29,957 nt of DNA from a virus: IMG/VR virus record IMGVR_UViG_3300040816_000196, positions 1 to 29,957 of that record; one strand, 5' to 3'. A program made the position numbers and the translations under genes. Under the pieces are notes generated by a model. The model made no database searches, was not told where the DNA came from, and saw only the letters and a program-made list of their open reading frames with translations. Each line of letters starts with the position of its first letter. Within the stretch, counting starts at the first letter, position 1. Positions 4,277-29,841 of the stretch are shown here, in pieces.

Positions 4277-4505
4277 AGCAGTTAAAGAACTTATTAAAGT
4301 CGCTAAAGAACCTATTGTTGAAACTGATGATGACATTTCAGCCGATAGACTCAAGAACGCTGCAGCCACTAAAAAGCTCGCAATATTCGATGCATTTGAG
4401 ATTTTAACTAGAATACAAGAAGAAGATGATATTCTTAATAATAAGCCAAAAGAAGAAATAGAGTCTGAAGTATTTAGTGGTTTTGCAGAACGAAGATCTA
4501 AATAA
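4230..4505 (+). CDS. Candidate small terminase subunit or terminase-leader protein
   Basis: A 91-aa, helix-rich, acidic protein. One helix carries AGHEAVKELIKVAKE; a second carries DRLKNAAATKKLAIFDAFEILTRIQEEDD; the C-terminus is FSGFAERRSK. It is the gene immediately before the large terminase, and its TAA shares a base with that start (TAATG at 4503-4507). Size, helical content and position match small terminase subunits, which recognise the packaging site and stimulate the ATPase, but I see no clear helix-turn-helix and the call rests on context. The ATG at 4230 lies 47 bases inside the preceding gene; no other methionine occurs in the frame, so this overlapping start is preferred. Confidence 0.5.
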   Translation: MNVKETKKNIIQAGHEAVKELIKVAKEPIVETDDDISADRLKNAAATKKLAIFDAFEILTRIQEEDDILNNKPKEEIESEVFSGFAERRSK

Positions 4506-6713: not shown

Positions 6714-9140
6714 ATGGCTGAATCAGTTGTAAAAGGTTACTTTCCAAGTCAAATCGCTAGCGATTTAGAAAAGATTAGCCAAGAGTACGGACTAAAGGTT
6801 GCTAAAGCTATAGAGTCTGAATGGTTTAAAAGAGACTCAGGTACTAATAGATTTTATAGTAATTCTAATGAGTTTCATAGGTTAAGATTATATGCTAGAG
6901 GTGAGCAGTCGATTCAAAAATATAAAGATGAACTATCTATTAATGGTGATTTATCTTATTTAAACTTAGACTGGAAACCTGTTCCTATTATACCTAAATT
7001 TGTAGATATAGTTGTTAACGGAATATCAGAAAGAACATATGATATAAAAGCATACTCTCAAGATCCATATGGTGTTAGTAAAAGAACTAAATATATGGAA
7101 TCTGTATTAAGAGATATGCAAACTAAAGAGCTTATACAGTTTGCAAAAGAGAATTTTAATGTAGATATGCAGGAAAATCCAAGTGAAGAACTTCCTGATT
7201 CAAAAGAAGAGCTTGATTTACACATGCAATTAAACTATAAGCAAGCTGTAGAGATAGCAGAAGAGCAAGCTATTAACACTTTGTTAGAAGGTAATAGATA
7301 TGAGCAAACAAGAAAAAGATTAAATTATGATTTAACAACTATAGGTATAGCAGCTGTTAAAAATTCATATAACAAATCTGAAGGGGTTACCGTAGAGTAT
7401 TGTGATCCAGCTAATATGATATGGTCATATACTGAGTCACCTTATTTTGACGATATATATTATGTAGGTGAAATAAAAGCAATACATATAAACGAACTTA
7501 AAAAACAGTTTCCTAATTTATCTAATGAAGATTTAGAAAATATAACTAAACAAGGAGTACAAAAAACTGGTTTGTTTAATAGAACTGTATCTGAAACAGA
7601 TAACTTAGATCAAAATACTATTCAAGTTTTATATTTTAATTATAAAACTTACGCTAATGAAGTTTATAAAGTAAAAGAAACAGCTACTGGTGCTACTAAA
7701 ATTATAGTAAAAGATGATAGTTTTAACCCACCAGGTTTAGATGAGCAACTAGAAGCTAGATATGGTAAATTATCTAGATCTGTAGAGGTTTTATACGAAG
7801 GAGCATTAGTGTTAGGTACTAAAAAGTTATTAAAATGGCAACTAGCTAAAAATATGATGAGACCTAAAAGTGATTACACTAAGGTCAAAATGAATTATAA
7901 TATTGTTGCTCCAAGAATGTACAAAGGAAGAATAGAGTCTTTAGTTAGTAGAATAACTGGTTTTGCAGATATGATACAGCTTACACATTTAAAGTTACAA
8001 CAAGTAATGTCTAGAATAGTACCAGATGGTATATATTTAGATGCAGATGGTTTAGCTGAAATTGATTTAGGTAACGGAACTAATTATAATCCACAGGAAG
8101 CATTAAATATGTTTTTCCAAACTGGTTCTATACTGGGCAGATCATTTACATCGGAAGGTGATATGAACCCGGGTAAAATACCTATTCAAGAAATAAATAG
8201 TAGTTCTGGTGGTCAAAAAATGCAAACATTAATACAGACGTATAACTATTATTTACAAATGATACGTGATGCTACTGGATTAAATGAAGCAAGAGATGGT
8301 AGTATGCCTGATAAAAATGCTTTAGTTGGTGTTCAAAAGTTAGCCGCTGCTAATAGCAACACAGCTACAAGACATATATTACAGGCTGGTTTATTTTTAA
8401 CAGCTGAAACAGCTGAGGCATTATCATTAAGAATATCTGATATACTTGAGTTTTCGCCAACAAGAGACGCTTTTATACAAGCTATAGGTGCTCATAACGT
8501 TGCTGTTTTAAGTGAAATGCAAGAATTACATTTGTATGACTTTGGTATATTTATAGAATTAGCACCTGATGAAGAAGAAAAACAGTTGTTAGAAAATAAT
8601 ATACAGGTTGCTATAGCTCAAAAACTTATAGATTTAGAAGATGCTATTGATCTTAGAAATATCAAAAATATAAAACTTGCAAATCAACTACTCAAGATTA
8701 GAAGAAAAAAGAAACAAGAAAGAGATCAATTATTACAAGAAAGAAATATACAAGCACAAGCAAAGGCTAATGCTGAAGCTCAGCAAGCTGCATCTCAAGC
8801 TGAGGTTCAAAAGCAACAAGCTCTTATACAGATACAAACGGCATTAGAACAAACAAAAGCTCAACTTGAGTTGCAAAAACTACAACAAGAGGTTAGTAGT
8901 AAAAAAGAGTTAATGCAGTTAGAATTCCAGTTAAATATGCAATTAAAACAACTAGAGAATAAAACTGTTAACGACAAAGAAAGATACAAAGAAGACAGAA
9001 AAGATGAAAGAACTAAAATTCAAGCATCTCAACAGTCTGAACTAATAGATCAAAGAAATAACGCTAAGCCACCTAAAAACTTTGAATCTACAGCAAATGA
9101 TACTATGGGTGGTATAGATTTAGGCTTATTTAAAGCTTAA
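6714..9140 (+). CDS. Portal protein
   Basis: An 808-aa portal, expected to form the dodecameric ring through which DNA enters and leaves. It follows the terminase by one base and precedes the scaffold and capsid genes, the normal order. Near the N-terminus the segment DWKPVPIIPKFVDIVVNGIS (about 90-109) is typical of large portals in marine podoviruses and crAss-like phages. A middle region, MRPKSDYTKVKMNYNIVAPR then GRIESLVSRITGFADMIQLT, corresponds to the stem/clip part. Residues about 662-770 form a long Gln/Glu/Lys-rich coiled coil, probably the barrel reaching into the capsid. The length fits large podovirus portals better than the roughly 500 aa usual in siphoviruses. The TAA stop is embedded in a 16-base palindrome. 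Confidence 0.85.
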   Translation: MAESVVKGYFPSQIASDLEKISQEYGLKVAKAIESEWFKRDSGTNRFYSNSNEFHRLRLYARGEQSIQKYKDELSINGDLSYLNLDWKPVPIIPKFVDIVVNGISERTYDIKAYSQDPYGVSKRTKYMESVLRDMQTKELIQFAKENFNVDMQENPSEELPDSKEELDLHMQLNYKQAVEIAEEQAINTLLEGNRYEQTRKRLNYDLTTIGIAAVKNSYNKSEGVTVEYCDPANMIWSYTESPYFDDIYYVGEIKAIHINELKKQFPNLSNEDLENITKQGVQKTGLFNRTVSETDNLDQNTIQVLYFNYKTYANEVYKVKETATGATKIIVKDDSFNPPGLDEQLEARYGKLSRSVEVLYEGALVLGTKKLLKWQLAKNMMRPKSDYTKVKMNYNIVAPRMYKGRIESLVSRITGFADMIQLTHLKLQQVMSRIVPDGIYLDADGLAEIDLGNGTNYNPQEALNMFFQTGSILGRSFTSEGDMNPGKIPIQEINSSSGGQKMQTLIQTYNYYLQMIRDATGLNEARDGSMPDKNALVGVQKLAAANSNTATRHILQAGLFLTAETAEALSLRISDILEFSPTRDAFIQAIGAHNVAVLSEMQELHLYDFGIFIELAPDEEEKQLLENNIQVAIAQKLIDLEDAIDLRNIKNIKLANQLLKIRRKKKQERDQLLQERNIQAQAKANAEAQQAASQAEVQKQQALIQIQTALEQTKAQLELQKLQQEVSSKKELMQLEFQLNMQLKQLENKTVNDKERYKEDRKDERTKIQASQQSELIDQRNNAKPPKNFESTANDTMGGIDLGLFKA

Positions 9141-10387: not shown

Positions 10388-11803
10388 ATGGCAATAGCAA
10401 GTTCTGGTGCTGCTTTACAGCACCTAACTCCAAGACCCGTAAAAGATTTATTTGGAGACAATTATTTAAGCATTACCGGGAATGACTTTAACTTTACAAA
10501 ACAATTCTTACCAGAAGTATACGAAAAAGAGGTAGAAAGATACGGAAACCGTACTATCTCTGGTTTCTTGAAAATGGTAGGAGCTGAAATGCCTATGGCT
10601 TCTGACGAAGTTGTATGGTCTGAACAAGGTAGAATCCACGTTGCTTACGACGATGTTGTAGGTACTGATGTTTCTGCTAACTTACTAACTTTTTCTGCTG
10701 CTCACTTAATTAACATTGGTGATACTATCATTGTTAGTAAAGGTGGTGTAACATTAAAATGTTATGTATCTGCTGTTCCTTCTGCAACTACAATTACTGC
10801 ACAACCTTACACGGCTGCTGATATTTCAAGTATTGGTGCTGACGCTGTTACAGGTGTAAAAGTATTTGTATATGGTTCAGAGTACAAAAAAGGATCGGCT
10901 AACGCTGGTAACACAAAGGATGCTAACTTCACATCTTTTAGTAATAAGCCAATTATTCTAAGAGACAAGTACAGTGTAAATGGTTCTGATACTGCTCAAA
11001 TTGGGTGGGTTGAAGTAACTACTGAATCTGGAACTGGAGGTTACCTTTGGTATTTAAAATCTGAGCACGAAGCAAGATTAAGATTTGAAGATCAATTAGA
11101 AATGACTATGATTGAAGCTGAAAAGAAAGGTGGTTCTTCCGCTATTTCTGCTGCAGGCATTTCTGGATCTGAAGGTTTATTCGCTGCTATCAACTCTAGA
11201 GGTTTAGTATTTAACAATGCTGACTTTGGAGGTTCAGAAGCTACTGACGGTCTAGCTGACTTTGATTTAATTCTACAAGAATTAGACAAACAAGGATCAA
11301 TTGAGGAAAACATGTTATTTTTAGATAGAGGAACTTCTCTAGCTATCGACAATATGTTAGCCGCTCAAAACTCTTACGGTACAGGTGGTACATCTTACGG
11401 TGTTTTTAGTAACAGCGAAGATATGGCATTAAATTTAGGTTTCTCTGGTTTCAGAAGAGGTTCTTATGACTTCTACAAAACAGACTGGAAATACTTAAAT
11501 GACTCTACTACAAGAGGTCTAGTTGGTGATATTGAAGGTGTATTTGTTCCTGCTGGAACTTCTACAGTTTACGATCAGCAATTAGGTAAAAACATTTCAA
11601 GACCATTCTTACACGTTAGATACAGAGCTTCTGAAGCTGACGATAGAAGAATGAAATCTTGGATCACTGGTTCTGTTGGTGGAAACTACACAAGCGACGA
11701 GGATGCGATGAACGTACATTTCTTATCTGAGAGATGTTTATGTGTTCAAGCTGCAAACAACTTTGTCTTGTTAAAATCTTCTGATGGAGTTATCGGTGAC
11801 TAA
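10388..11803 (+). CDS. Major capsid protein (HK97-fold expected)
   Basis: A 471-aa protein downstream of portal and scaffold, with the length and opening (MAIASSGAALQHLTPRPVKD) of major capsid proteins from marine podovirus-like phages. There is an N-terminal arm, then a long alpha segment, KQFLPEVYEKEVERYGNRTI, and later SEHEARLRFEDQLEMTMIEA, where HK97-type capsids have their spine helix; alternating Gly/Ser/Thr-rich beta segments follow. Codon use differs from its neighbours: tyrosine is TAC in 14 of 19 cases, against 3 of the first 19 in the portal, as expected for the most abundant virion protein. It ends with a double stop (TAA TAA) and is followed by hairpins at 11805-11849. The fold is inferred, not visible. 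Confidence 0.85.
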   Translation: MAIASSGAALQHLTPRPVKDLFGDNYLSITGNDFNFTKQFLPEVYEKEVERYGNRTISGFLKMVGAEMPMASDEVVWSEQGRIHVAYDDVVGTDVSANLLTFSAAHLINIGDTIIVSKGGVTLKCYVSAVPSATTITAQPYTAADISSIGADAVTGVKVFVYGSEYKKGSANAGNTKDANFTSFSNKPIILRDKYSVNGSDTAQIGWVEVTTESGTGGYLWYLKSEHEARLRFEDQLEMTMIEAEKKGGSSAISAAGISGSEGLFAAINSRGLVFNNADFGGSEATDGLADFDLILQELDKQGSIEENMLFLDRGTSLAIDNMLAAQNSYGTGGTSYGVFSNSEDMALNLGFSGFRRGSYDFYKTDWKYLNDSTTRGLVGDIEGVFVPAGTSTVYDQQLGKNISRPFLHVRYRASEADDRRMKSWITGSVGGNYTSDEDAMNVHFLSERCLCVQAANNFVLLKSSDGVIGD

Positions 11804-14282: not shown

Positions 14283-17200
14283 ATGCCAGAATTAAAACAC
14301 CATTTTCGTCTAGGTAAAATGAATAAAGACCTTGACGAAAGATTAGTTAACAATGGCGAATACAGAGATGCATTAAATATAGAAATTGCCAGCTCTGAAG
14401 GTTCAGATGTAGGTTCAGTACAAAACATACTAGGTAACAAGATTGAAAATGTAAACACATATAATTCTGATACAAAGGTATATACTTACTGGGCTAATTC
14501 ATTTGGTTTGTCAAATGCAAAATGTGTTGGTTCTATTAGAGATACTGAAAACGAAAAAATATACTGGTTTTTAACATCTGACTCAGCTGATTGTATTATA
14601 GAATTTAACCAAACAGATAAAGAAATATCACCAGTACTTGTTGATACACAAAATATATTAAACTTTTCTAGCGATAATTTTATAACAGGTGTAAACATAT
14701 TAGAAGGCTTGTTGTTTTGGACAGATAATGTTCATGAACCTAAAAAAATAAACATATCTAAGTTTAAAAAAGCAACAAATAACACGTTTGCTCATACGCA
14801 AATAAATGGTGGTAATTTTATAGAAGATCATATTACTGTTATAAAAAAAGCACCCATTAACGCTCCGATGTTAACAATGTCTTCTTCTAAAAGATCAGGA
14901 ATTATAGAATCATCTACAAGTTATAACTTTACTAGTGGTGGCGATCCTTTGCCTACAACCACACCTGCTTTTACATTAACATTTAATCCAGCACCTAACT
15001 TTATAGTTGGAGACACTATAGTTCTTAGTGCTAGCGAAGACGATGCTAATTTTGAAGATGAAATAGAAGTCAGAATTAAAATAGAATCTGTAATATCAAA
15101 CACTAGTTTTTCCGTCGTATTACAGTCTGTATCTAGTTTAGTACCTACAGAAACTATAGTTTTTAAAGCTGTACTAGAACAGGAAGAACCTTTGTTTGAG
15201 TTTAAGTTTCCTAGATTTGCATATAGATATAAATATGAAGATGGTGAGTATTCATCATTTTCTCCTTTTTCGGAAATAGCTTTTTTACCTGACGAGTTTG
15301 ATTATAACCCTAAAAAAGGTTATAACTTAGGAATGACTAACAATATAAGAAGTTTAACTGTATCTGGTTTTAAACCATCTGATATACCTTATGATGTAAA
15401 AGAAGTTGATTTATTATATAAAGAGTCAAACTCCACAAACGTATATAGTGTTAAAACTTTTGACAGTGATGATGCTGAGTGGACTAGTAATAGTTTTAAT
15501 ATAGAATCAGAGATAATCTATGCTACATTACCTAGTGATCAATTATTAAGACCTTGGGATAATGTGCCTTTAAAAGCTAAAGCACAAGAAATGATAGGTA
15601 ATAGATTGATATATGGTAACTATACTCAAAACTACAATTTAACAGACTATAACAATAACATTGTAAAACCTAAATTTGACGTTATAATAGAACAACCAAC
15701 GAATAAATCTGTTGTAGTTAAATCACCTTCTAAATCTATAAAATCACTAAGAACATATCAATTAGGTATAGTTTATAAAGATAAATATGGTAGAGAAACA
15801 CCCGTTTTAACTGATAACTCAGGTTCTAAAAAAATTGGTAAAAAATCTGCTGATAATTATAACAATATAAATGTGAAACTTACTAACCCAACATATCCAT
15901 CTTGGGCAACTCATTTTAAATACTATATAAAAGAGCCATCAAACGAGTATTACAATTTAGCTATGGATAGATGGTATAATGCAGAAGATGATAATATTTG
16001 GTTAAGTTTTCCTTCTAGTGAAAGAAATAAAGTACAAGAAGATAGGTTTTTAATATTAAAGAAAAAACATGACTCAGATGATTTTGTAAAAGAAGATGCA
16101 AAATATAAAGTAATAGCAATATCAAATGAAGCTCCAGATTTCTTAAAAGAATCTAAGAAAAGTAAAGGTATAATGACAACTAACTTTTTAGCATCTGGTT
16201 TTCCACAAAAAGAAGGTACTTTTGTAGATATTGGCGCTACTGAATTTGAAGAAAAAACTTTTGGAGCTGGTGAAAACAGTAATCCTGAAATTATATCAAA
16301 ATCAGATTTATATATAAGATTTAGAGCCGGTGGTAATTTATCTAAATATTATGAGGTTGTTAGCTTTGCTAAGGTTTCAAACCCAGATAGATATAGAATT
16401 ACTATAAATAAAGTTTTTAAAGAAGATGTTAGCTTTGCTGGAACAGCTGGTTCACCTATATCTGGTTTAAAACTAGAAATAGCACAACAAGTAATGGAAA
16501 ACAAACCTGAATTTACAGGTAGATTTTTTGTTAAGGTGTATAAAGATCAAACATTACAAAACAATATACTTAGTAAAATCAACCAACAAACAAGTTATGG
16601 TATTGTTGCTAAAGAAAAAATGTTTGTAATAAAAAACAAAAGCAATAGTAAAAGTTGGTGGAGAGATGCTAACAAAGGTAATGGTGATGTAAATGCTGGT
16701 TGGTTTTTTGATAACAACAATACTTACAACAACCATGATACTGGTGGTGGTAGCTTAGATGCTACAAAAAGAAGAGAAGGTAAGATAATTGGAGGTAAAA
16801 ATTCTGGTTATGGTATACAAGCTGGTAGAAAAACAATATCAATAGCTTACCATTGGTTTGGAGGTAAAGATAGAGATGGTTGGAGAGCCAAATGGAATCA
16901 GTTTCCTAGTGATGATGATGACCAGCAATATAAAGATTTTGTTAACGCGTTAGAAAATGATGGTATGAAGTTTAGGTTAACTGACGACCCAACTAACACC
17001 GTTTATGAAATAAAAAAACATTTAAGAACTCATTTAGTTGCTTATGATCAAGCTAGAGTAAAAATAGGTAAGTTTGCTAGTATGAGAGTTATAAGATGGA
17101 CTTTAGCTTTAGACAAACCTATAAAATGGTCACCAGAAACAAATGTAACAGGTATAATAAATAATAAAAGTAATAGTACTGGTTTTGAGTTTTTAACTCC

Positions 17201-18518
17201 TTATAACGATGATAAAGAGTTCACTACGGATAATCCAGCTATATGGGAGACAGAGCCATTAGAGGATATAGGTTTAGATTTATACTATGAAGCTAGTAAT
17301 GCATACCCTATTAATCAACATGGTAACATGCATACTTTAAACTGGCACAACTGTTATTCTTTTGGTAACGGTGTAGAATCAAATAGAATAAGAGATGATT
17401 TTAATGCTGTTCAAATAGACAAAGGGCCTAAAGTTTCAACTATATTAGCAGAGCAGTACAAACAAGAGGTAAAAAAGACAGGTTTAATATTTTCAGGTAT
17501 ATTTAACTCTACATCTGGAATAAATAGAACAAATCAATTTATAATAGCTAATCCTATAACTAAAGATTTAAACCCATACTATGGTAGTATACAAAAATTG
17601 TATTCTAGAACTAGAGACGGTGATTTAATTACTTTATGTGAAGATAAATCTTTAAAAATATTAGCTGATAAAGACGCTTTATATAACGCTGATGGTAATG
17701 CCAATTTAACATCTGTAAACAGAGTTTTAGGCCAAGCAATACCTTATGTAGGAGAGTTTGGTATAAGTAAAAACCCTGAATCTTTTGTTCAATATGGTTT
17801 TAGATCTTATTGGGCCGACAAAAACAGAGGTGTTGTTTTAAGATTATCAAACGACGGTTTAGAAGAAATATCTAATAAAGGTATGTCAGATTTTTTTAGT
17901 GATAACCTAGCCACGGCAACAAGTGTTGTTGGTAGCTATGATGATGACAAAGGTTTATATCATATAACTTTAAACAACAATACAATTAGCTATAAAGAAA
18001 ACGTTAGAGGTTGGACCACTAGATGTTCTTTTATACAAGAAAGTGGTGTAAGTTTAAACAATAAGTTTTACACATTTAAAGATGGTAACTTATGGGTTCA
18101 TTACTCAAATGATTTAAGGAATAATTTTTATGGTGTTCAATATAACTCTACTATAAAGTTATTAATAAACGATGCTCCAAGTTCTGTTAAATCTTTTACA
18201 GCTCTAAACTACGAAGGTTCACAAGCTGTACAATATACTTATGATATAGACCCTAATGATGGACAAACTGATTCACAAGTAAAAACAAAAAACGGTTGGT
18301 TTGTTAATAGTATTACTACAGACCAACAAACTGGTTCTATAAAAGAATTTAAAAACAAAGAGGGTAAATGGTTCAACTATATAAAAGGAGAAGCTACAAC
18401 GTTATCTAATTTAGATACAAAAGAGTTTTCTGTACAAGGCATAGGTAATCCTTCTGTTGTTGGATCATTAGTGCCACAATATGTAATAACGGTTTCAGAC
18501 ACTGGAGATCAAGATTAA
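14283..18518 (+). CDS. Tail nozzle / 'stabilization'-type structural protein
   Basis: A 1411-aa virion protein. The N-terminus (FRLGKMNKDLDERLVNNGEY, then RDALNIEIASSEGSDVGSVQ) is a hallmark I know from proteins annotated as structural or stabilization proteins in marine and crAss-like phages, named after P22 gp10. Propeller-like strands follow (KIYWFLTSDSADCIIEF, GLLFWTDNVHEPKKINI), then Fn3-like beta domains (FAYRYKYEDGEYSSFSPFSE). The C-terminal third, from PYYGSIQKLYSRTRDGDLIT on, returns to propeller-like repeats. Such proteins close the head and form the tail nozzle of short-tailed phages. It sits between the connectors and the host-contact/ejection genes. A glycine- and asparagine-rich stretch near residues 800-840 may be an inserted loop. 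The family is recognised by memory of the motif; the T7 gp12/P22 gp10 equivalence is inference. Confidence 0.75.
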   Translation: MPELKHHFRLGKMNKDLDERLVNNGEYRDALNIEIASSEGSDVGSVQNILGNKIENVNTYNSDTKVYTYWANSFGLSNAKCVGSIRDTENEKIYWFLTSDSADCIIEFNQTDKEISPVLVDTQNILNFSSDNFITGVNILEGLLFWTDNVHEPKKINISKFKKATNNTFAHTQINGGNFIEDHITVIKKAPINAPMLTMSSSKRSGIIESSTSYNFTSGGDPLPTTTPAFTLTFNPAPNFIVGDTIVLSASEDDANFEDEIEVRIKIESVISNTSFSVVLQSVSSLVPTETIVFKAVLEQEEPLFEFKFPRFAYRYKYEDGEYSSFSPFSEIAFLPDEFDYNPKKGYNLGMTNNIRSLTVSGFKPSDIPYDVKEVDLLYKESNSTNVYSVKTFDSDDAEWTSNSFNIESEIIYATLPSDQLLRPWDNVPLKAKAQEMIGNRLIYGNYTQNYNLTDYNNNIVKPKFDVIIEQPTNKSVVVKSPSKSIKSLRTYQLGIVYKDKYGRETPVLTDNSGSKKIGKKSADNYNNINVKLTNPTYPSWATHFKYYIKEPSNEYYNLAMDRWYNAEDDNIWLSFPSSERNKVQEDRFLILKKKHDSDDFVKEDAKYKVIAISNEAPDFLKESKKSKGIMTTNFLASGFPQKEGTFVDIGATEFEEKTFGAGENSNPEIISKSDLYIRFRAGGNLSKYYEVVSFAKVSNPDRYRITINKVFKEDVSFAGTAGSPISGLKLEIAQQVMENKPEFTGRFFVKVYKDQTLQNNILSKINQQTSYGIVAKEKMFVIKNKSNSKSWWRDANKGNGDVNAGWFFDNNNTYNNHDTGGGSLDATKRREGKIIGGKNSGYGIQAGRKTISIAYHWFGGKDRDGWRAKWNQFPSDDDDQQYKDFVNALENDGMKFRLTDDPTNTVYEIKKHLRTHLVAYDQARVKIGKFASMRVIRWTLALDKPIKWSPETNVTGIINNKSNSTGFEFLTPYNDDKEFTTDNPAIWETEPLEDIGLDLYYEASNAYPINQHGNMHTLNWHNCYSFGNGVESNRIRDDFNAVQIDKGPKVSTILAEQYKQEVKKTGLIFSGIFNSTSGINRTNQFIIANPITKDLNPYYGSIQKLYSRTRDGDLITLCEDKSLKILADKDALYNADGNANLTSVNRVLGQAIPYVGEFGISKNPESFVQYGFRSYWADKNRGVVLRLSNDGLEEISNKGMSDFFSDNLATATSVVGSYDDDKGLYHITLNNNTISYKENVRGWTTRCSFIQESGVSLNNKFYTFKDGNLWVHYSNDLRNNFYGVQYNSTIKLLINDAPSSVKSFTALNYEGSQAVQYTYDIDPNDGQTDSQVKTKNGWFVNSITTDQQTGSIKEFKNKEGKWFNYIKGEATTLSNLDTKEFSVQGIGNPSVVGSLVPQYVITVSDTGDQD

Positions 18519-20970: not shown

Positions 20971-21594
20971 ATGGATCCAATATCAATGGGTGTAAGTGCG
21001 TTAGGATCTATTGCCGGTGGAATGATAGGAAGCGGCAAGCGAAAAAGAGAGCAAAGACAAGCTCAAGCTGAGTTTGATAGAAACAAAGCTAGATATGAAT
21101 CTCTTGATACATCTAACCAGTACACTAATTTAGAAAACACATACGAAGACTTAACAGTAAACACTCAGGCTGCTGATTTTGCAGCTCAAAAACAACAACA
21201 AGTATTAGCAAATACTATGAGTGGTATGCAAGGTGCTGCTGGTGGTGGTGGTGTTGCTGCTTTAGCACAAGCTATGGCTAATCAACAGTCTGCTAATATG
21301 CAAGCTGCATCAGCTGATATAGCTAGACAAGAATCTAGTAATCAAGCCGCACAAGCTCAAATGGCTGGTAATTTACAAATGGCTGAAAGAATGGGTGCTG
21401 AAAAATCTAGAGCTGCTGAATTAGATAAAACAGAAACGTTGTTAGGTATGTCACAACAAAGGCTTGGTGCTGCAAATGCAGCTAGACAAGCTGCAACACA
21501 AAGCATAATAGGTGGTGTTACAGGATTAGCAACTTTAGGTGCTCAAAGTAGTGAAGGTGTTCAAGATTTGTTTAGTAACATGAACCTAAGCTAA
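20971..21594 (+). CDS. Internal virion (ejection) protein, T7 gp14-like in character
   Basis: A 207-aa Ala/Gln/Gly-rich protein. Residues 5-21 (SMGVSALGSIAGGMIGS) are a glycine-zipper hydrophobic helix followed by a basic patch, KRKREQRQ. A long Gln/Ala-rich helical middle contains MSGMQGAAGGGGVAALAQAM. Near the C-terminus a second hydrophobic stretch reads ATQSIIGGVTGLATLGA. Two short membrane-active segments around a helical core, the size near 200 aa, and the place first of three ejection-type genes recall T7 gp14, which forms an outer-membrane pore during DNA ejection. The equivalence is by architecture and order, not by sequence match. It ends with a double TAA, ten bases before the next start. 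Confidence 0.65.
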   Translation: MDPISMGVSALGSIAGGMIGSGKRKREQRQAQAEFDRNKARYESLDTSNQYTNLENTYEDLTVNTQAADFAAQKQQQVLANTMSGMQGAAGGGGVAALAQAMANQQSANMQAASADIARQESSNQAAQAQMAGNLQMAERMGAEKSRAAELDKTETLLGMSQQRLGAANAARQAATQSIIGGVTGLATLGAQSSEGVQDLFSNMNLS

Positions 21595-21604
21595 TAATAT
21601 AATT

Positions 21605-22963
21605 ATGGGAAATCAATCATTAATAAAAGGTGCTGCGCTTGCTGCTCCAAAATTCAACGATATAGGGGCTGTAGCAAAACAAGCAGTTTCAGGTATTAGC
21701 GAATATTATTTAGCTAGAGCCGCAGAAAAAAGACAAGAAGAAAGGTTACAAAAAGCTAAAGTAGAAACATACTTAAATGCTATGCCTGCCGGTATAGAGC
21801 TTAGTAAAATACCACCTGCTCAACAAGAAAATGTAGCTAATTGGAGTAAACAAATGAAGTTTCAATATGCTGAAGCCGCTAGAGTTTTACCAACATTAGA
21901 AGCAGGATCAGAAGCTTATGTTGAAACAATGAGCAAAATGACTAATATAAAAAATGCTTTTGTTAATTTAAACAACAATTTAGAAACTTTTAAAGCTAAT
22001 AAAACAGAATATTTAAAAAGTAGTTCTTCAGGAGCTTTATCTAAAGGTAACAACTCTAAACAAGGTAATATATTAGCTAATATTTACACGGATGAGTCAG
22101 ATATGATTTTTGATGCAAATGGTAATATGGCTTTTCAATCTGGTGATCAAGTTTTAAATATCAACGATATTCCTGATTATTTTAATAAAGATTTTAAGAG
22201 TGCTGATGCACTTATAAACATAAACTCAGATATATATAACGCTGGTCAAAAGTTAGATCCTACTATGTCTAACATGTATAGACAGAAAATATTAAATATG
22301 ATAAGACAAGGTGGTAGAGAAACTACATTATCACTAGCTACAGATGATTTAATACAAGAAGGTGGTTTAGGTATTGTAGATGAAGATTTATTATATAACC
22401 CTGAAAGACAAGAAGAATTAGAGCAAGTAGTTGTAGATAATTACATGAACATATTAAATAGCTCAGCTAACTCTGGATATGCTAAAAAACAAGCAGCTAT
22501 TAAAAAATCTCAAGCATCTAGTAGCCCTACAGCTTACAAGTATGGTCAATCAACTAGAGATGATTTACAAATATACTCTAGCCCTGCTAAACAAACCTAT
22601 AGTGATTTAAAATCTAAAATTAAAGAAATTGATTCTAATGGAATGAACGATCCGATAGAATTAAAAGTTGCAGAGGTAAATAAAATTTTAAAAAGTAACA
22701 ATCCTGACTTTCAAGATCTAGTAATTAATGACGACGGATCTGTTCATATGTTGACTTTTGATAAAAAAGGAAATGAGATTATTGATGATGAAGGTTTCAG
22801 TGTAACTAAAAAAATAGATTTTAATGACAACAATTCTGTTGTAGAGCTTGTAATAAGTAGTTTAGGTAGCGGAATAAGTGATGATGCTAAAATGATTTTA
22901 AGACAACAATTAAAAGGTTTAAAACCTAATGTTAAACTAACTGGTGATCCGAATAAACTTTAA
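21605..22963 (+). CDS. Internal virion protein candidate (second of three)
   Basis: A 452-aa, mostly helical protein. The N-terminal part, FNDIGAVAKQAVSGISEYYL then ARAAEKRQEERLQKAK, is an amphipathic Ala-rich helix with no real membrane span. The middle is helical and charged with a Ser/Asn-rich linker near residues 138-150 (SSSSGALSKGNNSKQ). The C-terminal part is mixed (DLVINDDGSVHMLTFDKKGN) and ends PNVKLTGDPNKL. It lies between the gp14-like gene and the giant internal protein, separated by 10 and 2 bases, so one transcript is nearly certain. By position it matches the T7 gp15 slot (periplasmic tunnel), but no sequence feature proves this. It could also be a chaperone or docking partner for the 2291-aa protein. 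Confidence 0.6.
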   Translation: MGNQSLIKGAALAAPKFNDIGAVAKQAVSGISEYYLARAAEKRQEERLQKAKVETYLNAMPAGIELSKIPPAQQENVANWSKQMKFQYAEAARVLPTLEAGSEAYVETMSKMTNIKNAFVNLNNNLETFKANKTEYLKSSSSGALSKGNNSKQGNILANIYTDESDMIFDANGNMAFQSGDQVLNINDIPDYFNKDFKSADALININSDIYNAGQKLDPTMSNMYRQKILNMIRQGGRETTLSLATDDLIQEGGLGIVDEDLLYNPERQEELEQVVVDNYMNILNSSANSGYAKKQAAIKKSQASSSPTAYKYGQSTRDDLQIYSSPAKQTYSDLKSKIKEIDSNGMNDPIELKVAEVNKILKSNNPDFQDLVINDDGSVHMLTFDKKGNEIIDDEGFSVTKKIDFNDNNSVVELVISSLGSGISDDAKMILRQQLKGLKPNVKLTGDPNKL

Positions 22964-22965
22964 CT

Positions 22966-25900
22966 ATGTTTGAAAAATTAGTAAGAGATCTTTATAGTAA
23001 ATACGCACCAGATGTAGATGTAGAAGAAAAGTTAAAATATATTTCTCAATCAGATTATTCTGTTGATGGTTTTATGAATGATTTTTATGCTAAATATGCT
23101 CCAAATCAAGTTTTAGATGACGAAAAAAAAGGAGTTATTTACGAATCATATTTTCCAGAGCAATTTAAAAAGATTTCTGAAAAACAAGAAAAAGAAAAAA
23201 ATTTAGATCAAAGATCAAACACTTGGTTAGAAAATTTAGTTGGGCAAGAAGAAGGCAAAAGCTATAGTTTATTTGATAAAGAAAAAAATTATGGCGAGGA
23301 TCCTGGTCTTCTTTCGTTTTTTCCAAACATTTTTAATACAGCTGTAGACATGATGAGTGATTGGTACAAAGATGGTATGGCTTCATGGGCTCAATCTAAA
23401 TTAGTTCAACCTTATCAAGATATAATGGAAGCTCCAGATAAGATGTCTTCGGAAGATTTTCAAAAAATTATAGAATTAGGAAAAAAAGTGTCTGAACAGC
23501 CTTTAAGTAAAGAGCTACAAGAATTTCAACCTAGGTTTTTAGAACTGTTAAAAGAAAATCCAGATAATAGTTTAAAAGCTTATCTCCAGGCTTTTGCTGA
23601 AAACCCCAGCGCAACAATGAGTATGTTTGCTCAAAGTACAGCTCTTCAAGGTTTTACATTATTTAATAGTAGTGATGCAAAGGCAAACGCTTTAAAATAT
23701 GCTGCAACAACAATGACCGGTGCTTTTACCATTGGTCAACTAGGGCCTCAAGCTGGATTTCTTGAAGAGATAGTAACTATTCCAGTGGCTGGTATAGCTG
23801 GAGTAATGGGTGGTGTTTCTAGAACAATGGAAGAATCTTTTACTTTAATGGATTTAGCTTTAGAAGATATAGGTCAAGAAAAATATCTTAAAATGAGCGA
23901 TGAAGAAAAAGAACAAGCTCTTAGAGATGTATTTGAAAATAAAGAAAAGTTTGATGACATAAAGAGTAAAGCTATAGCAAGAGGTAAAACAATATCTTAT
24001 TTTGACACAGCGGCTGGACTTTTAGTACCAGGTTTCGGTAAAAGTATAGGAAAAGGTATGGCTTTAAGTAGAGCTAGTAAAATGACCAATGTTGCTAGAA
24101 CTTTTGGAACAGCAACTTTAGAAACAGGTATGGGTATGGCTAGTGAATACTTTGGACAAAAAGCGGCTGGTCAAGAAACTGACATGTTTGAAATATATGC
24201 GGAAGGTTTTACAGATAAAGTTTTTACAATTTATGATTTAGCGCAAAGTGGAGCGAAAACTCCTAAGTACAGTATAAATGGTAAGCCTATGAATGGCAAG
24301 CAGTTTTCAGAAACTTTAAAATTAATGGATGACGAAGCTTACTCTGGTGCTATTATAAAAATTGAAAACAGCCCTGTTGCTCAGCAAATAGTAGACAATA
24401 GAACAGAAAATATAGCTTTAGATCAGAAAATAAATAGTAAAATATCCGATCCTGCTGATAGAGCTAAAATGATGAAGCTAGAAAAACAATATAAAAAACT
24501 AGCTAAAAACGATACAGAGTCTGGTAAAAAACAGAAAGCTAAAATTAAAGAGCAAATTGATGCTATAGAAACTAAATATGAAAATTCTAAAGTAGACGTT
24601 ACTATTGAAAACAGAAAAAAAGCTGTAGCGTTAGCTATAGACAATAAATTTGAAAAACAATTTAATAAAAACTTAAAAAGTGTACAAGATTTTGCTGATC
24701 AAAAAGGTTTAGATATAGATATAAGCGAAAACGAAGATACTTATTTTCAAAAAATAGCTGATGCAACAAGTCAAACGTTAGAACAAATAAAACAAAAAGC
24801 TGTTGGTAGTGATGGTGCTTTTATTGGTAAGGGTAAGATATTTATAAATAAAACTCAAGCTAAAAAAATAGGTGCGGTAAATGTCGCATCACATGAAGTT
24901 TTACATCCTATTTTAAATGCTTTAGTAGGTGGTACAAAAGCACAACAAAATCTAGTTAATGGTTTTAAAAAGAAATTAAATAGTAAGCAAAGAGCAATGA
25001 TGGATGAGTTTATGGGTAATCAACCGGAAGGTACTGAGTACTTAACCGTTTTTACTGATAACTTTGATGCTATTATGGCTGAGCAAAACATAACTCAAAA
25101 AATAAGTGATTTTTTTAGAGACTTATATGTTAAGCTTGGTTATGAAAATATAAATTTTGACAGCGGTGAAGGTATATATAACTTTTTAAAAGAATATAGT
25201 AAAAGTACTAGAGAAGGTAAATTAAGTGATAGAGCTACAAAAGCTATAGATAAAGCTGAAGCAAAAGTTGATACTAAAATAGGTGATGTTGATACCGCTG
25301 GTAATGTTATACAAAAATCACAGGTTTATCAGTCGGTTGAAGGCATGAAAGATGGTTTACTAAACCCTAAAACAAAAAGAGATACAGCTTTTACTATGTC
25401 TAATGAGTTGTTAAATGAGATAGACAGAAGATTAAAAATTGATGTAGATTCTGAAACAAGAGAAGATATTGTTAGAGATTTTGCTTTTAATGAACAAAGA
25501 GGTTTATTAGGTTTAATACAAAAATATGACCCAGATATAAATGACAGTGTTATGGGTTATTTAAATGCTAAAGTTAAAGGTAGAAGTTTGTTTGATGCTA
25601 GACTTCAAGAGTTTTATGAAAAAGATCCTAGATATAATAAAATAGTACAATCTTTATCAGATGAAGCTACACAGAAAAAAGCTCAGAAAAAATTAGATGA
25701 AGAGAGTAGTAAAGATCAAGGTCCAGCAGCTAGAGCGCTAACAGATTTTAATGATTTGATGATTAACGATGAAAATTTTATAACATCAGATATATACAAG
25801 TCTATAAAAGGTAAAATAATAAATAACATAACATTACTATTATCTAAGGGTAATTTAGATGTTAATAGTATGGTTGATATTATAAACAAAGAAATTTCTA

Positions 25901-28900
25901 ACGTTATTAAAAAAGCTCAAGGTAAAATATCTAGGGTAGATGGTAAGGTTGTAATATCTAAAGAATACGACAACTTTGTAAGAGAAGGTTATGAAAGCGG
26001 TATTAAATCTTTACCTATAAGGGTTATAAAAGATAGTTATTTAAATAAACTATTTCCTAGTAAAAAGTTAGGCAAGGTTGACATGCAGAATAGAAAAGCT
26101 GATAACCCAAACCTTAAAAAAGACAGTAATTATAGAATAGATAAATTAGAAATTAAACCACCTACATTAGGTAAATGGATTAAATATTTTACAGAAGGTG
26201 GTTATACAACTTTATTAGCTAAACAAAAAAAGTACGCAACTGAAATAGCTAAAGCTGTATCGTTAAAAGTAACTAGAGAGTCTATAGTTGATCAAGATGT
26301 ATTATTAGAAATATTTAACAAATCTTCTTTGAGAAATGAAGAAATAACAATAGACATTATTGAAACTTATTTTAATAATTTTGAACAAACTTTAGATAGT
26401 AAAACAGATGAAAGATCTGGTTTTGATGATATACAGTTTAGTAACACGGGTAAAATAACTAAAAAAGGTGCTGAAATACTTGCGAACAAAGCTTTAAATA
26501 ATGATCGTTCTGGATTGCCTGGAAATTTTATTATTAAAGTATTTGAGCCTATACAAAATGTATTTAAAGGTGGTTATGTATCTATGGTATTTCAAAGTGA
26601 AAAACTTTCTGATAAAGATATTCAATTGTTTCAAAGTGTAAAACCTTTATACAGTGTTGTTAATGAAGAAAAGATTTTAAACGAAGATACAAATAAAATT
26701 TTAGATCAAGGTTTTAGTAACTTTTTGAAAAAACTACCAAGTGAGTTAATAGAAAAAGTAAAAACAATATTAGATTATGCCGGCATGCATCATAGGGGTA
26801 AAAACCTATCGTCAGATGAAGCTAAATCTTTCGTTAAAAAGCTAAATAAAAACATTGAAGAGACAAACCCTGAATTATTAAAATTATATAAAAAAATAAA
26901 TTTTGAACATATAAGTCTTCAGTTGCAAGGACAGAATTGGTATAATAAAAATGTTTTAGCTATTCAAGCTGGTAAAAATATTAAAGAAAAAATATCTTTA
27001 ATGCAGTCTCTTTACAAAGATATAGTTCTTAAAAATAATGCTAATTTAGCTCTTAAAAACTATTTAGATGCTAAGATGACTGATTTAATTAAAAAAGGTG
27101 AGTTATCAAAAGAGTATGTTTATGTGAGAGGTAGACTTGAAACAAACATAGCTAAATCAGGTAGAGCTCTTAGTATGTTTGAATATATTGAATTATTTGA
27201 CGGTGAGCAAGTTGTTTTAAATACAAACGGAGGTCTTCAAAAAAAACCTGCAAAAGGTAAAAACATGGATGATAAAGCTTATCAAATAAAACTTGATGAG
27301 TATTACAATAAATGGAAACAAACCGTCAACTGGAGTGAAGCTTTAAAAATAGCTAAAAAAATACACAATAACAAAAAAAATAAAAATAAAACATTTACTA
27401 AAAATCAATTGTTTGACTTAACTATTAAACAAATAGTAAATAAAAATGAGCATTTAAAAGAGAACTCTATGACAGCTGGTCTAGCTACTATATCCGCAAT
27501 GTCTGGCACGTTTGATACTACAATAAATGAAACACATACAACAGCTTGGTTGTCTAAAATGACTGCAGACAAAATGGATGCAGCCGGTGGAACTGTTACT
27601 TTTGATGGAGCAACAAGATTAATAAAATATTTATCAAAAGAAGTATCAAATAATATATATCATATTTCAGGTGTAAAAGCTACAACACATGTTATACAAA
27701 CTGTCGTTAGCAAAGGGTTGAAAGATGGGTCAATAAAAATGTCTGATTTACCAACCGAAGTTCAAAACGAAATTGATTTTAGTAAAACAGAACAATCAAA
27801 CTCTGATCAGTTTAATAAAATACTAGAACAAACAAAAGGTGTTGATGCTGTTAAAAGATTTTCAGATGCTGCTGCTAAATCAAGAGGAGCTAAAAAAGGT
27901 TTATACGACTGGTTTATACCACCATCTGCTGAAGATTTTTCTGGTTTACTTTATAAGTTTTTAGGTAAAGGTAAAGTAGGAGATGAACAAATGAAGTTTT
28001 TTAAAGATAAACTAATAAACCCGTTTGCTTCTGCTATGGCTGAAATAGATAGAAGAAAACAACAAATGTCTAATGAGTATTTAGCATTAAGAAAGAAAAT
28101 GCCAGGTGTTAAGAAAATGTTAGGAGAAAACACTGGTTATAATGAATTCACATATGACAGTGCTGTGAGAGTTTATTTATGGGATAAAGCTGGTTTTGAA
28201 ATACCTGGTTTATCTAAAAGAGATCAAACAGAGTTAGTTAAAAAAATAAAAGAAAATGCTGATTTAAAGTTATATGCTGACACTTTAGGTGTGATAAGTA
28301 AGCTTAAAGATGGTTGGGTTAAACCAAGTGAAAGTTGGTTAGGTGGTAATATACCTACAGATCTTAGTGATATAAATCAAAAAGTAAATAGAAAAGAGGT
28401 TTTAGCTGAATGGGTTAAAAACAAAAACGAAATATTTAGTAAAGAAAACTTAAATAAAATTGAAGCTATATATGGCACAGATTTTAGAGAGTCTTTAGAA
28501 GAAATATTAGGTAGAATGGAAAGAGGTTCTAATAGACCTATAGGTTCTAATCAAAACAAACTTACAACTAAGTTTATGAACTGGGTTAATAACTCGGTTG
28601 GTGCTATAATGTTCTTCAATGCTAGATCTGCAATATTACAGACTATATCTATGGCTAACTTTGTTAACTTTAGTGACAACAATATATTCGCAGCGTCAAA
28701 AGCTTTTGCTAATCAAAAACAATTTTGGGCAGATTTTACTATGTTATTTAATAGCGATTTCTTAAAACAAAGAAGATCAGGTTTAAAAACAGATATAAAT
28801 GAAGCTGAAATATCTAATGCTGTAGGTACTGCCCCTAACAAAGCAACTGCTGCATTTAAATATATGCTTAAAAAAGGTTTTTTACCTACACAAATTGCAG

Positions 28901-29841
28901 ATAGTTTTGCTATAGCAATGGGTGGCGCTAGTTTTATAAGAAATAGAATAAACTCTTTAGTTAAAAGTGGTATGACCAAGCAAGAAGCTATGGATCAAGC
29001 TATGTTAGATTTTAGAGAAATATCTGAAGAAGCTCAACAATCTAGTAGACCTGATAGAATTAGTTCACAGCAAGCTGGACCACTTGGTCGTGTAATATTA
29101 GCTTTTGCAAACACACCTATGCAGTATGCAAGGATGCAGAAAAAAGCAATACTTGATTTAAAAAATGGTAGAGGTGATTGGAAAACAAACATGAGTAAAA
29201 TACTTTACTATGGTGTTATACAAAACTTTATATTTAATGCATTACAGCAAGCATTGTTTGCAATGGCGTTTGATGATGATGAAGAAAAGTTACAAGAAAA
29301 AGAATTAGGTATATTAAACGGTATGGCTGATTCACTGTTAAGGGGTACCGGTGTTGGTGGTGCTGGTGTAGCTACTGTGAAAAATATGGTTATGGAATTA
29401 ATAAGACAAAACCAAAAAGATAGACCTGATTATGTAAATGTTGCATTAAAGTCAACAACAATATCACCACCTATATCTTCTAAACTAAACAAATTAGTAT
29501 CTTCAGCAAGAACATTTCAATGGAACGGTAAAGAAATAAGAGAAGAAGGTTTAAGCTTAGATAACCCAGCTAACTTAGCTGTAGGTAAAACAGTATCTGC
29601 TTTTACTAACATACCTTTAGATAGAGTCGTACAAAAAATAGATAATTTAAAAACAGCTACAGAAGAAGAAACTGCAGCTTGGCAAAGTATAGCTTTAGTA
29701 TTAGGATGGGATCAATGGAGTTTAGGTATGAATCCATATCAACAGAAAAAAAGCAAACCCTCTAATAAAAGAAAAATTAGAAGCAAAAGTAATAAAATTA
29801 ATATTAGTACAAACTCTAAAAATAGAAAAATAAGAAAATGA
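22966..29841 (+). CDS. Giant internal virion protein with zinc-peptidase motif
   Basis: A 2291-aa protein, the last and largest of the ejection-type cluster. The N-terminus holds two copies of a short motif, DLYSKYAP (8-15) and DFYAKYAP (39-46). Residues about 240-290 contain a hydrophobic, Gly-rich membrane-active stretch (IPVAGIAGVMGGV). HEVLH at 643-647 with Glu691 in TEYLTVFTDN fits a gluzincin-type zinc site. The C-terminal third (GLYDWFIPPSAEDFSGLLYK, AIMFFNARSAILQTISMANF, SRPDRISSQQAGPLGRVILA, ANTPMQYARM) is a block I know from very large virion proteins of marine phages. A hydrophobic helix lies near 2080-2106 and a strongly basic tail covers the last 35 residues. By place it resembles T7 gp16, but no lysozyme motif was found. 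Its TGA overlaps the next ATG by three bases. Confidence 0.75.
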   Translation: MFEKLVRDLYSKYAPDVDVEEKLKYISQSDYSVDGFMNDFYAKYAPNQVLDDEKKGVIYESYFPEQFKKISEKQEKEKNLDQRSNTWLENLVGQEEGKSYSLFDKEKNYGEDPGLLSFFPNIFNTAVDMMSDWYKDGMASWAQSKLVQPYQDIMEAPDKMSSEDFQKIIELGKKVSEQPLSKELQEFQPRFLELLKENPDNSLKAYLQAFAENPSATMSMFAQSTALQGFTLFNSSDAKANALKYAATTMTGAFTIGQLGPQAGFLEEIVTIPVAGIAGVMGGVSRTMEESFTLMDLALEDIGQEKYLKMSDEEKEQALRDVFENKEKFDDIKSKAIARGKTISYFDTAAGLLVPGFGKSIGKGMALSRASKMTNVARTFGTATLETGMGMASEYFGQKAAGQETDMFEIYAEGFTDKVFTIYDLAQSGAKTPKYSINGKPMNGKQFSETLKLMDDEAYSGAIIKIENSPVAQQIVDNRTENIALDQKINSKISDPADRAKMMKLEKQYKKLAKNDTESGKKQKAKIKEQIDAIETKYENSKVDVTIENRKKAVALAIDNKFEKQFNKNLKSVQDFADQKGLDIDISENEDTYFQKIADATSQTLEQIKQKAVGSDGAFIGKGKIFINKTQAKKIGAVNVASHEVLHPILNALVGGTKAQQNLVNGFKKKLNSKQRAMMDEFMGNQPEGTEYLTVFTDNFDAIMAEQNITQKISDFFRDLYVKLGYENINFDSGEGIYNFLKEYSKSTREGKLSDRATKAIDKAEAKVDTKIGDVDTAGNVIQKSQVYQSVEGMKDGLLNPKTKRDTAFTMSNELLNEIDRRLKIDVDSETREDIVRDFAFNEQRGLLGLIQKYDPDINDSVMGYLNAKVKGRSLFDARLQEFYEKDPRYNKIVQSLSDEATQKKAQKKLDEESSKDQGPAARALTDFNDLMINDENFITSDIYKSIKGKIINNITLLLSKGNLDVNSMVDIINKEISNVIKKAQGKISRVDGKVVISKEYDNFVREGYESGIKSLPIRVIKDSYLNKLFPSKKLGKVDMQNRKADNPNLKKDSNYRIDKLEIKPPTLGKWIKYFTEGGYTTLLAKQKKYATEIAKAVSLKVTRESIVDQDVLLEIFNKSSLRNEEITIDIIETYFNNFEQTLDSKTDERSGFDDIQFSNTGKITKKGAEILANKALNNDRSGLPGNFIIKVFEPIQNVFKGGYVSMVFQSEKLSDKDIQLFQSVKPLYSVVNEEKILNEDTNKILDQGFSNFLKKLPSELIEKVKTILDYAGMHHRGKNLSSDEAKSFVKKLNKNIEETNPELLKLYKKINFEHISLQLQGQNWYNKNVLAIQAGKNIKEKISLMQSLYKDIVLKNNANLALKNYLDAKMTDLIKKGELSKEYVYVRGRLETNIAKSGRALSMFEYIELFDGEQVVLNTNGGLQKKPAKGKNMDDKAYQIKLDEYYNKWKQTVNWSEALKIAKKIHNNKKNKNKTFTKNQLFDLTIKQIVNKNEHLKENSMTAGLATISAMSGTFDTTINETHTTAWLSKMTADKMDAAGGTVTFDGATRLIKYLSKEVSNNIYHISGVKATTHVIQTVVSKGLKDGSIKMSDLPTEVQNEIDFSKTEQSNSDQFNKILEQTKGVDAVKRFSDAAAKSRGAKKGLYDWFIPPSAEDFSGLLYKFLGKGKVGDEQMKFFKDKLINPFASAMAEIDRRKQQMSNEYLALRKKMPGVKKMLGENTGYNEFTYDSAVRVYLWDKAGFEIPGLSKRDQTELVKKIKENADLKLYADTLGVISKLKDGWVKPSESWLGGNIPTDLSDINQKVNRKEVLAEWVKNKNEIFSKENLNKIEAIYGTDFRESLEEILGRMERGSNRPIGSNQNKLTTKFMNWVNNSVGAIMFFNARSAILQTISMANFVNFSDNNIFAASKAFANQKQFWADFTMLFNSDFLKQRRSGLKTDINEAEISNAVGTAPNKATAAFKYMLKKGFLPTQIADSFAIAMGGASFIRNRINSLVKSGMTKQEAMDQAMLDFREISEEAQQSSRPDRISSQQAGPLGRVILAFANTPMQYARMQKKAILDLKNGRGDWKTNMSKILYYGVIQNFIFNALQQALFAMAFDDDEEKLQEKELGILNGMADSLLRGTGVGGAGVATVKNMVMELIRQNQKDRPDYVNVALKSTTISPPISSKLNKLVSSARTFQWNGKEIREEGLSLDNPANLAVGKTVSAFTNIPLDRVVQKIDNLKTATEEETAAWQSIALVLGWDQWSLGMNPYQQKKSKPSNKRKIRSKSNKINISTNSKNRKIRK

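Follow-up and report, generated by a model that had tools for sequence, protein, structure and literature searches.

A predicted gluzincin-type peptidase domain in the giant probable cargo protein of a marine crAss-related phage group

What does a peptidase do inside a giant protein that a phage ejects into its host? Predictions of zincin domains in ejected phage proteins go back to 2017, such domains have been seen in the chains of the virion RNA polymerase (vRNAP) of phage N4, and no substrate for them is named in the accessible portions of the literature, from which the following background is also taken. The metallopeptidase (MPTase) domains of polyvalent phage proteins have an HExxH motif, a Glu on a later helix and a three-stranded core, and self-processing by such domains has been proposed for DdrB of phage P1 and others (PMC5512222, Iyer et al. 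2017). The vRNAP region of N4 is divided into a C1 domain, which bears HExxH, and, after it, a large helical C2 domain that has no structural relatives, and vRNAP is expelled together with two more ejection proteins (PMC12633501). The zincin of CB1 vRNAP was matched to PPEP-2 6FPC (PMC8472413), and a metallopeptidase domain is present in the tape-measure protein of Thermus phage P23-45, a fusion with a virion RNA polymerase (PMC10770324). As for the crAss-like phages, crAss001 virions were found to contain gp45, gp46, gp47, gp49 and gp50, which are regarded as cargo, and gp47, a protein of 262.5 kDa, was detected there by mass spectrometry (PMC10172136).

The window, that is, the whole stretch of 29,957 bases analysed here, has as its last gene that of a giant protein, P0001. 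Its head genes are followed by the gene of a muzzle-like protein, that of a 691-aa protein, then 107-, 207- and 452-aa genes and finally the giant gene. The features needed for the argument are these.

15-2756: protein resembling a tail fibre, with a Peptidase_S74 chaperone domain at its end (Pfam 2e-12)
4505-6712, + strand: terminase large subunit (PHROGs 3.7e-165)
6714-9140, + strand: portal (PHROGs 5.8e-159)
10388-11803, + strand: major capsid protein (PHROGs 3.6e-105; sub-threshold Crass_capsid match in Pfam)
14283-18518, + strand: muzzle-like tail protein of 1411 aa (Pfam crAss_MUZ 3.5e-12, crAss_MUZ_C 2.4e-10)
20971-21594, + strand: 207-aa gene, placed like a small ejection protein (homologue position)
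21605-22963, + strand: 452-aa gene directly upstream of P0001, placed like a mid-sized ejection protein (homologue position)
22966-29841, + strand: giant protein P0001, 2291 aa, 258 kDa, a probable virion cargo or ejection protein (open frame, homologues)
24568-25335, + strand: modelled zincin region, residues 535-790, core about 546-770 (AlphaFold2, phmmer)
24892-24906, + strand: HEVLH, residues 643-647, with predicted zinc ligands His643 and His647 and predicted catalytic base Glu644 (sequence, homologues, model helix)
25036-25038, + strand: Glu691, predicted third zinc ligand, 44 residues past His647 (homologue column, model helix)
27748-29790, + strand: constant all-helical C-terminal module, residues 1595-2275 (homologue matches, alignment, model)

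The initial annotation had pointed to HEVLH at residues 643-647 of P0001 and to Glu691 within TEYLTVFTDN, and had read the two together as a gluzincin-type active site. Both positions are correct: the motif starts at nt 24892, and TEYLTVFTDN begins at residue 690, its Glu being residue 691 at nt 25036-25038. Is such a short pattern kept among relatives? Homologues were collected from IMG/VR with six peptide patterns, none spanning HExxH, the best 80 of 187 matches giving 79 loci with a homologue, and 18 further loci were taken from bacterial and archaeal genome contigs via a profile of the C-terminal module. HExxH is present in 77 of the 79 IMG/VR homologues, a count that is not built in because the search patterns exclude the motif; in residue shuffles of the same proteins it is expected in 0.36 of 79, and the permuted motifs H.E.H, EH..H, HH..E and H..EH are found in 1, 1, 0 and 1 of the 79 (all for the best 80 of 187 matches). 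A chance pattern was ruled out on these counts. The HExxH-bearing homologues from IMG/VR (n = 77, best 80 of 187 matches) are 2033-4049 aa long, some of them cut. The genome contigs add 11 HExxH proteins of 18, and the motif is absent from nine of all 97 homologues (L005, L036, L083, L084, L088, L089, L095, L096 and L097) because these ORFs, of 440-1349 aa and with their first base at position 1-3 of a locus at a contig end, are cut ahead of the motif region. Some loci are identical or near-identical, and 78 domain pieces were reduced to 76 distinct ones; HExxH in 76 of 76 aligned pieces is by construction, the motif being the anchor for cutting them. Several loci (L082, L083, L087, L089, L095 and others) come from metagenome-assembled genomes labelled Aliivibrio, Woesearchaeota, Caldiserica, Ilumatobacteraceae and also Bacteroidota, and these contigs are probably of phage origin, placed with the wrong host in binning. 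L019 and L021 have another HExxH (HELQH) at residue 1615 of the giant protein, far from the first one, which is possibly a second zincin.

The predicted third ligand is nearly as constant. When the pieces cut around HExxH were aligned by MAFFT, the Glu691 column held 75 Glu and one Asp in 76 distinct sequences; in alignment A1 it held 74 Glu, one Asp and one Arg of 76, the Arg belonging to L041, a divergent sequence. With HExxH in 88 of 97 homologues, the remaining nine being cut, and Glu691 in 74-75 of 76 distinct sequences, the conservation of the proposed active site is borne out. The spacing between the second His and the Glu is 44-80 residues in the window group (median 55), P0001 having 44. 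The mean column identity of the domain is only 17% (A1, 76 rows) and H, E and H are invariant in it; the columns of E691 and F740 are at least 90% conserved, and the general-base Glu644 is as fixed among the homologues as the ligands. How coherent is a family of such low identity? By phmmer with P0001 alone, the zincin region was matched in 44 of 79 homologues (best 80 of 187 matches), and an HMM built from those rows, 43 in all, was tried on 44 held-out proteins with HExxH and found the region spanning the motif in 36 of them at E <=9.5e-6, training and held-out rows having shared the joint alignment A1. The other eight of the 44 (L023, L032, L041, L058, L061, L077, L094 and L098) gave no match to this HMM, which counts against the gluzincin reading. 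By eye, several of the eight share a layout of a G-x-hhhN strand, HExxH and a later E-I-L-T-x-x-S-E. Searches of P0001 gave no family above chance in Pfam, PHROGs or NCBIfam, no sequence match in PDB and none by tblastn of a phage collection. A Pfam scan of the 76 domain sequences brought up 65 families, mainly as single chance-like matches; zincin families among them were Peptidase_M78 (5 of 76), DUF5700 (2 of 76) and, weakly, ATLF (2 of 76), and the window's own domain matched no Pfam model. Two results of the A1 profile against PDB sequences are not counted as evidence, phage Gp34 (E 0.0059, over the N-terminal helical part) and small zinc endoproteases (E 1.3-1.4, over the HExxH part).

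Residues 535-790 were modelled by AlphaFold2 with the 76-row alignment (mean pLDDT 85.6, pTM 0.83). In model numbering, the elements are H13-45, E49-53, E83-87, E90-94 and then helices, with HExxH on the helix 106-120 and Glu691 on a later helix, 156-164, and their order is that described, in the available part of the source, for zincin MPTases of polyvalent proteins (PMC5512222). Foldseek by itself listed no significant match to this model, either in PDB (best E 1.1) or among predicted viral structures (best E 3e-3), which counts against the assignment; two of the viral matches, to proteins of 1475 and 1232 aa, had a probability of 1.00. Realigned with VIA-align 2, the model fitted eight chains best, one of PPEP-2, two of PPEP-3, four of lethal factor and one of Zmp1/PPEP-1, with Z 4.6-6.2 over 144-169 residues, and the next row, an unrelated one, had Z 3.2. 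The top chain is PPEP-2 (6FPC) with a modest Z of 6.2, and the realignment is support and not proof, because, by the tool's own guidance, Z <8 may reflect only an arrangement that is common. In three of the four lethal factor chains the model is aligned with the N-terminal part, a zincin-like domain that is not known to be catalytic, and this also counts against the assignment. A model with three strands, HExxH on one helix and Glu691 on another further along, and the PPEP and lethal-factor zincin folds as its best realigned PDB chains, agree with the fold that had been expected, and ligand conservation together with the zincin-type secondary structure of the model supports the predicted gluzincin-type site. 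Residues about 546-770 are very probably a zincin-fold peptidase with an intact active site.

The giant protein has two constant parts, the zincin and the C-terminal module, and the domains between and around them are exchanged. The C-terminal module (about residues 1600-2250) was matched by phmmer in all 79 homologues from the best 80 of 187 matches, the stretch 1161-1560 of P0001 in just 3-5 of these 79. The module is the most conserved part of P0001, with a mean column identity of 55% over 67 rows (alignment A3, which is 66 of 77 listed locus pieces and the window). Its model is all-helical (pLDDT 76.5); Foldseek listed no significant match to it in PDB, and realignment gave scattered rows with Z <=4.7. 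Just N-terminal of the module sits a HAD-phosphatase-like segment in some members: the HAD-like motif DFDDT (DFDDTLA...) occurs by pattern in 49 of 97 homologues, for example in L022, L018, L007 and L011, and PHROGs polynucleotide kinase was matched in 2 of 17 members. Such a segment was not found in residues 1501-1660 of P0001. The 4044-aa protein of L020 (L020:3807-15938) has an AAA_33/zeta-toxin-like domain at residues 2470-2612, above the Pfam cut-off, and LPD23 was matched weakly in 1 of 17 members. A T7-like RNA polymerase was not detected when N4 residues 998-2103 were compared by phmmer with P0001 and the 97 homologues (best E 0.076, P0001 E 2.6), in a single-sequence test which a very remote polymerase could escape. 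The pattern D.DGD, which 4 of the 79 homologues from the best 80 of 187 matches contain, has no link to a polymerase. As judged from the sequences, the predicted zincin is the enzyme that is retained while the other domains of the giant protein come and go.

Of 56 IMG/VR loci with >1800 nt upstream of the giant ORF, 55 carry a homologue of the 207-aa gene there, and a homologue of the 452-aa gene lies directly upstream in 23 of 79 (both for the best 80 of 187 matches); in the genome contigs, the 207-aa homologue is found in 6 of 7 loci with >1800 nt of room. By analogy, P0001 probably occupies the cargo slot of a crAss-related phage genome, in the order of head genes, muzzle, small, mid-sized and giant. 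Is its peptidase domain related to anything in a cargo protein already detected in virions? Relatives of the HExxH region of gp47 were found in 54 phage records, and 16 loci were examined (15 by hit, and L178), of which 12 have an open frame of at least 200 aa under table 11, 11 of these with HExxH. The gut crAss-like loci L186, L188, L191 and L193 have a tblastn match to the gp47 domain and no frame of at least 200 aa under table 11, L185 has only one such frame, without HExxH, and one giant CDS is annotated across each of these five loci; stop-codon reassignment likely explains the missing frames. A gp47 profile made of the 11 HExxH loci and crAss001 was aligned by hhalign with that of the window group at Prob 91.9 and P 6.8e-7, in an alignment of 113 columns that takes in HExxH and a downstream helix, and its score of 52.0 is to be compared with 16.2 for the best of 100 column shuffles. 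Counting against this link, Glu691 does not stand opposite any Glu of gp47 in the hhalign alignment, and gp47 was not among the matches of a single-sequence HMM search with A1. Also against it, HExxH lies towards opposite ends of the two proteins, and the C-terminal module was not detected in crAss001. Gp47 has a related HExxH domain by these tests and no relationship over its full length was found, P0001 and the C-terminal module profile giving nothing at E 1e-1 or better against the six-frame ORFs of crAss001, where gp47 was searched in two pieces. A literature search for crAss-like phages or Crassvirales together with metalloprotease found, in the accessible text, none that names this domain in gp47. 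Because of the gene order and of the related HExxH domain in gp47, which is found in virions, P0001 is called an ejected protein, and we infer by analogy that it would be packaged in the particle and ejected into the bacterium.

How would such a domain work, and on what? Zinc binding and catalysis by the P0001 domain are predicted: His643, His647 and Glu691 would hold zinc, and Glu644 would activate water for peptide-bond cleavage. P0001 itself or co-packaged partners might then be cut, during maturation or after ejection, and the variable domains might be freed from the constant C-terminal module. Since the peptidase is kept and its passengers are exchangeable, processing of the cargo itself is favoured, and we lean, if only slightly, to a role in cutting its own giant polypeptide or the partners packaged with it. 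When would this happen? The peptidase may act in assembly and trim P0001 or further virion proteins ahead of packaging or in the course of it: P1 DdrB carries such a domain and is processed before packaging (PMC5512222) and a maturation role was suggested for the zincin of group 1 jumbo phages in the accessible part of that paper (PMC7824862). N4 vRNAP, the nearest well-studied relative, is packaged unprocessed according to the available sections of the former source (PMC5512222), and its solved chains span 3500 residues with the domain inside. Cutting before packaging is therefore disfavoured and action in or after ejection is indicated, and we regard an assembly role as doubtful.

The main rival to cargo processing is a host-directed effector, an active zinc peptidase which after ejection cuts defence, transcription or envelope proteins. 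Host targets have been offered as an alternative for such domains in the portion of the source at hand (PMC5512222), and the best realigned folds, PPEP and lethal factor, include peptidases that cut in trans. However, the domain is always in the same type of giant protein with the same C-terminal module, which a cis or cargo role fits at least equally, so that an effector seems to us unlikely. One may also ask whether the fold is proteolytic at all. It might be kept for structure or for other chemistry, such as that of an alpha-ketoglutarate-type HExxH enzyme, which is mentioned for N4, and HExxH occurs in zincins and in radical-SAM-associated proteins alike (PMC12633501, accessible part); the literature found, as far as its available text goes, shows no activity for any relative. 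The realigned folds are peptidases, and the general base is as fixed as the ligands; this explanation is quite improbable. That HEVLH is a functionless chance pattern finds nothing in its favour except the low pairwise identity of the region, and given 77 of 79 against 0.36 (best 80 of 187 matches), the conserved Glu691 and a confident model with the expected helices, the chance of it is close to nil. A gluzincin-type zinc peptidase in a virion cargo protein, which would process its own protein or its partners, is on the whole the explanation that we consider best and reasonably probable.

A much broader proposal can be made for the giant ejected cargo proteins of crAss-like phages, of their marine relatives and of N4-like phages: the zincin may be the enzymatic core that all of them conserve, an obligatory protease for release, which sets injected domains free in the cell while passengers are exchanged. 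The proposal is tentative, and we would rather doubt it at present. If it is true that a protease releases the injected domains, this would explain how proteins of 250-450 kDa function after a narrow tail passage. What is new here is a marine crAss-related group of 97 homologues (79 from the best 80 of 187 matches), every member of which retains the active site if it extends that far, and the link by profile comparison between this group and a cargo protein from a crAss phage in culture. With a fixed active site and the link to gp47, cleavage targets become testable in a laboratory phage.

The domain of P0001 joins the known zincin class of polyvalent phage proteins, a concept already published. 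Like those proteins, P0001 is large and multidomain, with a zincin and variable partners, and its domain is likened to theirs by description and placed in none of the 12 MPTase clades given in the available part of Iyer et al. (2017). PPEP-1/2/3 and anthrax lethal factor are the best structural realignments of the domain model, at 8-13% identity and an rmsd of 3.8-6.3, a match too modest for membership. For an M34-type (PPEP/lethal factor) assignment, there are the Z values of 4.6-6.2 on realignment, a Foldseek result that is not significant and the weak ATLF match in 2 of 76 sequences, and these relatives are secreted or toxin proteins whereas P0001 is a predicted virion protein. The same PPEP-2 chain, 6FPC, is the top structural match of the CB1 vRNAP zincin and of the P0001 domain. 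In N4 vRNAP, the C1-C2 layout resembles P0001, with HExxH and a later conserved Glu and then a large helical part. The N4 zincin set (67 rows) has HExxH in 74 of 74 spanning hits, and its profile aligns with that of the window group at Prob 31 and P 5e-4, which is weaker than the link to gp47, with a score of 32.6 against 21.3 for the best of 150 shuffles and over just the part up to HExxH. An element after the third Glu shared by the window group and N4 was rejected (9 columns, 15.9 against 15.2 for the best of 100 shuffles), and no link was found between the N4 set and the gp47 set (Prob 2). The His-to-Glu spacing is 62-89 residues in the N4 group (median 75) and shorter in the window group as given above, and N4 vRNAP has a T7-type RNA polymerase, whereas none was detected in P0001. 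The N4 profile finds the solved N4 vRNAP chains, and it also matches residues 356-559 of PDB 9sfn_G, a solved 1337-aa phage 'Internal virion protein', at E 2.7e-5, in a segment that carries HEAVH and a later conserved Glu. The order of gp52 (16.5 kDa), gp51 (66 kDa) and gp50 (vRNAP) in N4 is small, mid-sized and giant, as in the window. In gp47 of crAss001, HExxH lies at residue 2157 of 2341, near the C-terminus, whereas that of P0001 lies at 643 of 2291, in the N-terminal third. The DFF-helix region downstream of HExxH is aligned between the window group and gp47 as well, the gene order gp44, gp45, gp46, gp47 in crAss001 likewise puts the giant last, and in both phages an HExxH domain is found in a giant protein, of 262.5 and 258 kDa respectively, that is encoded downstream of the muzzle gene.
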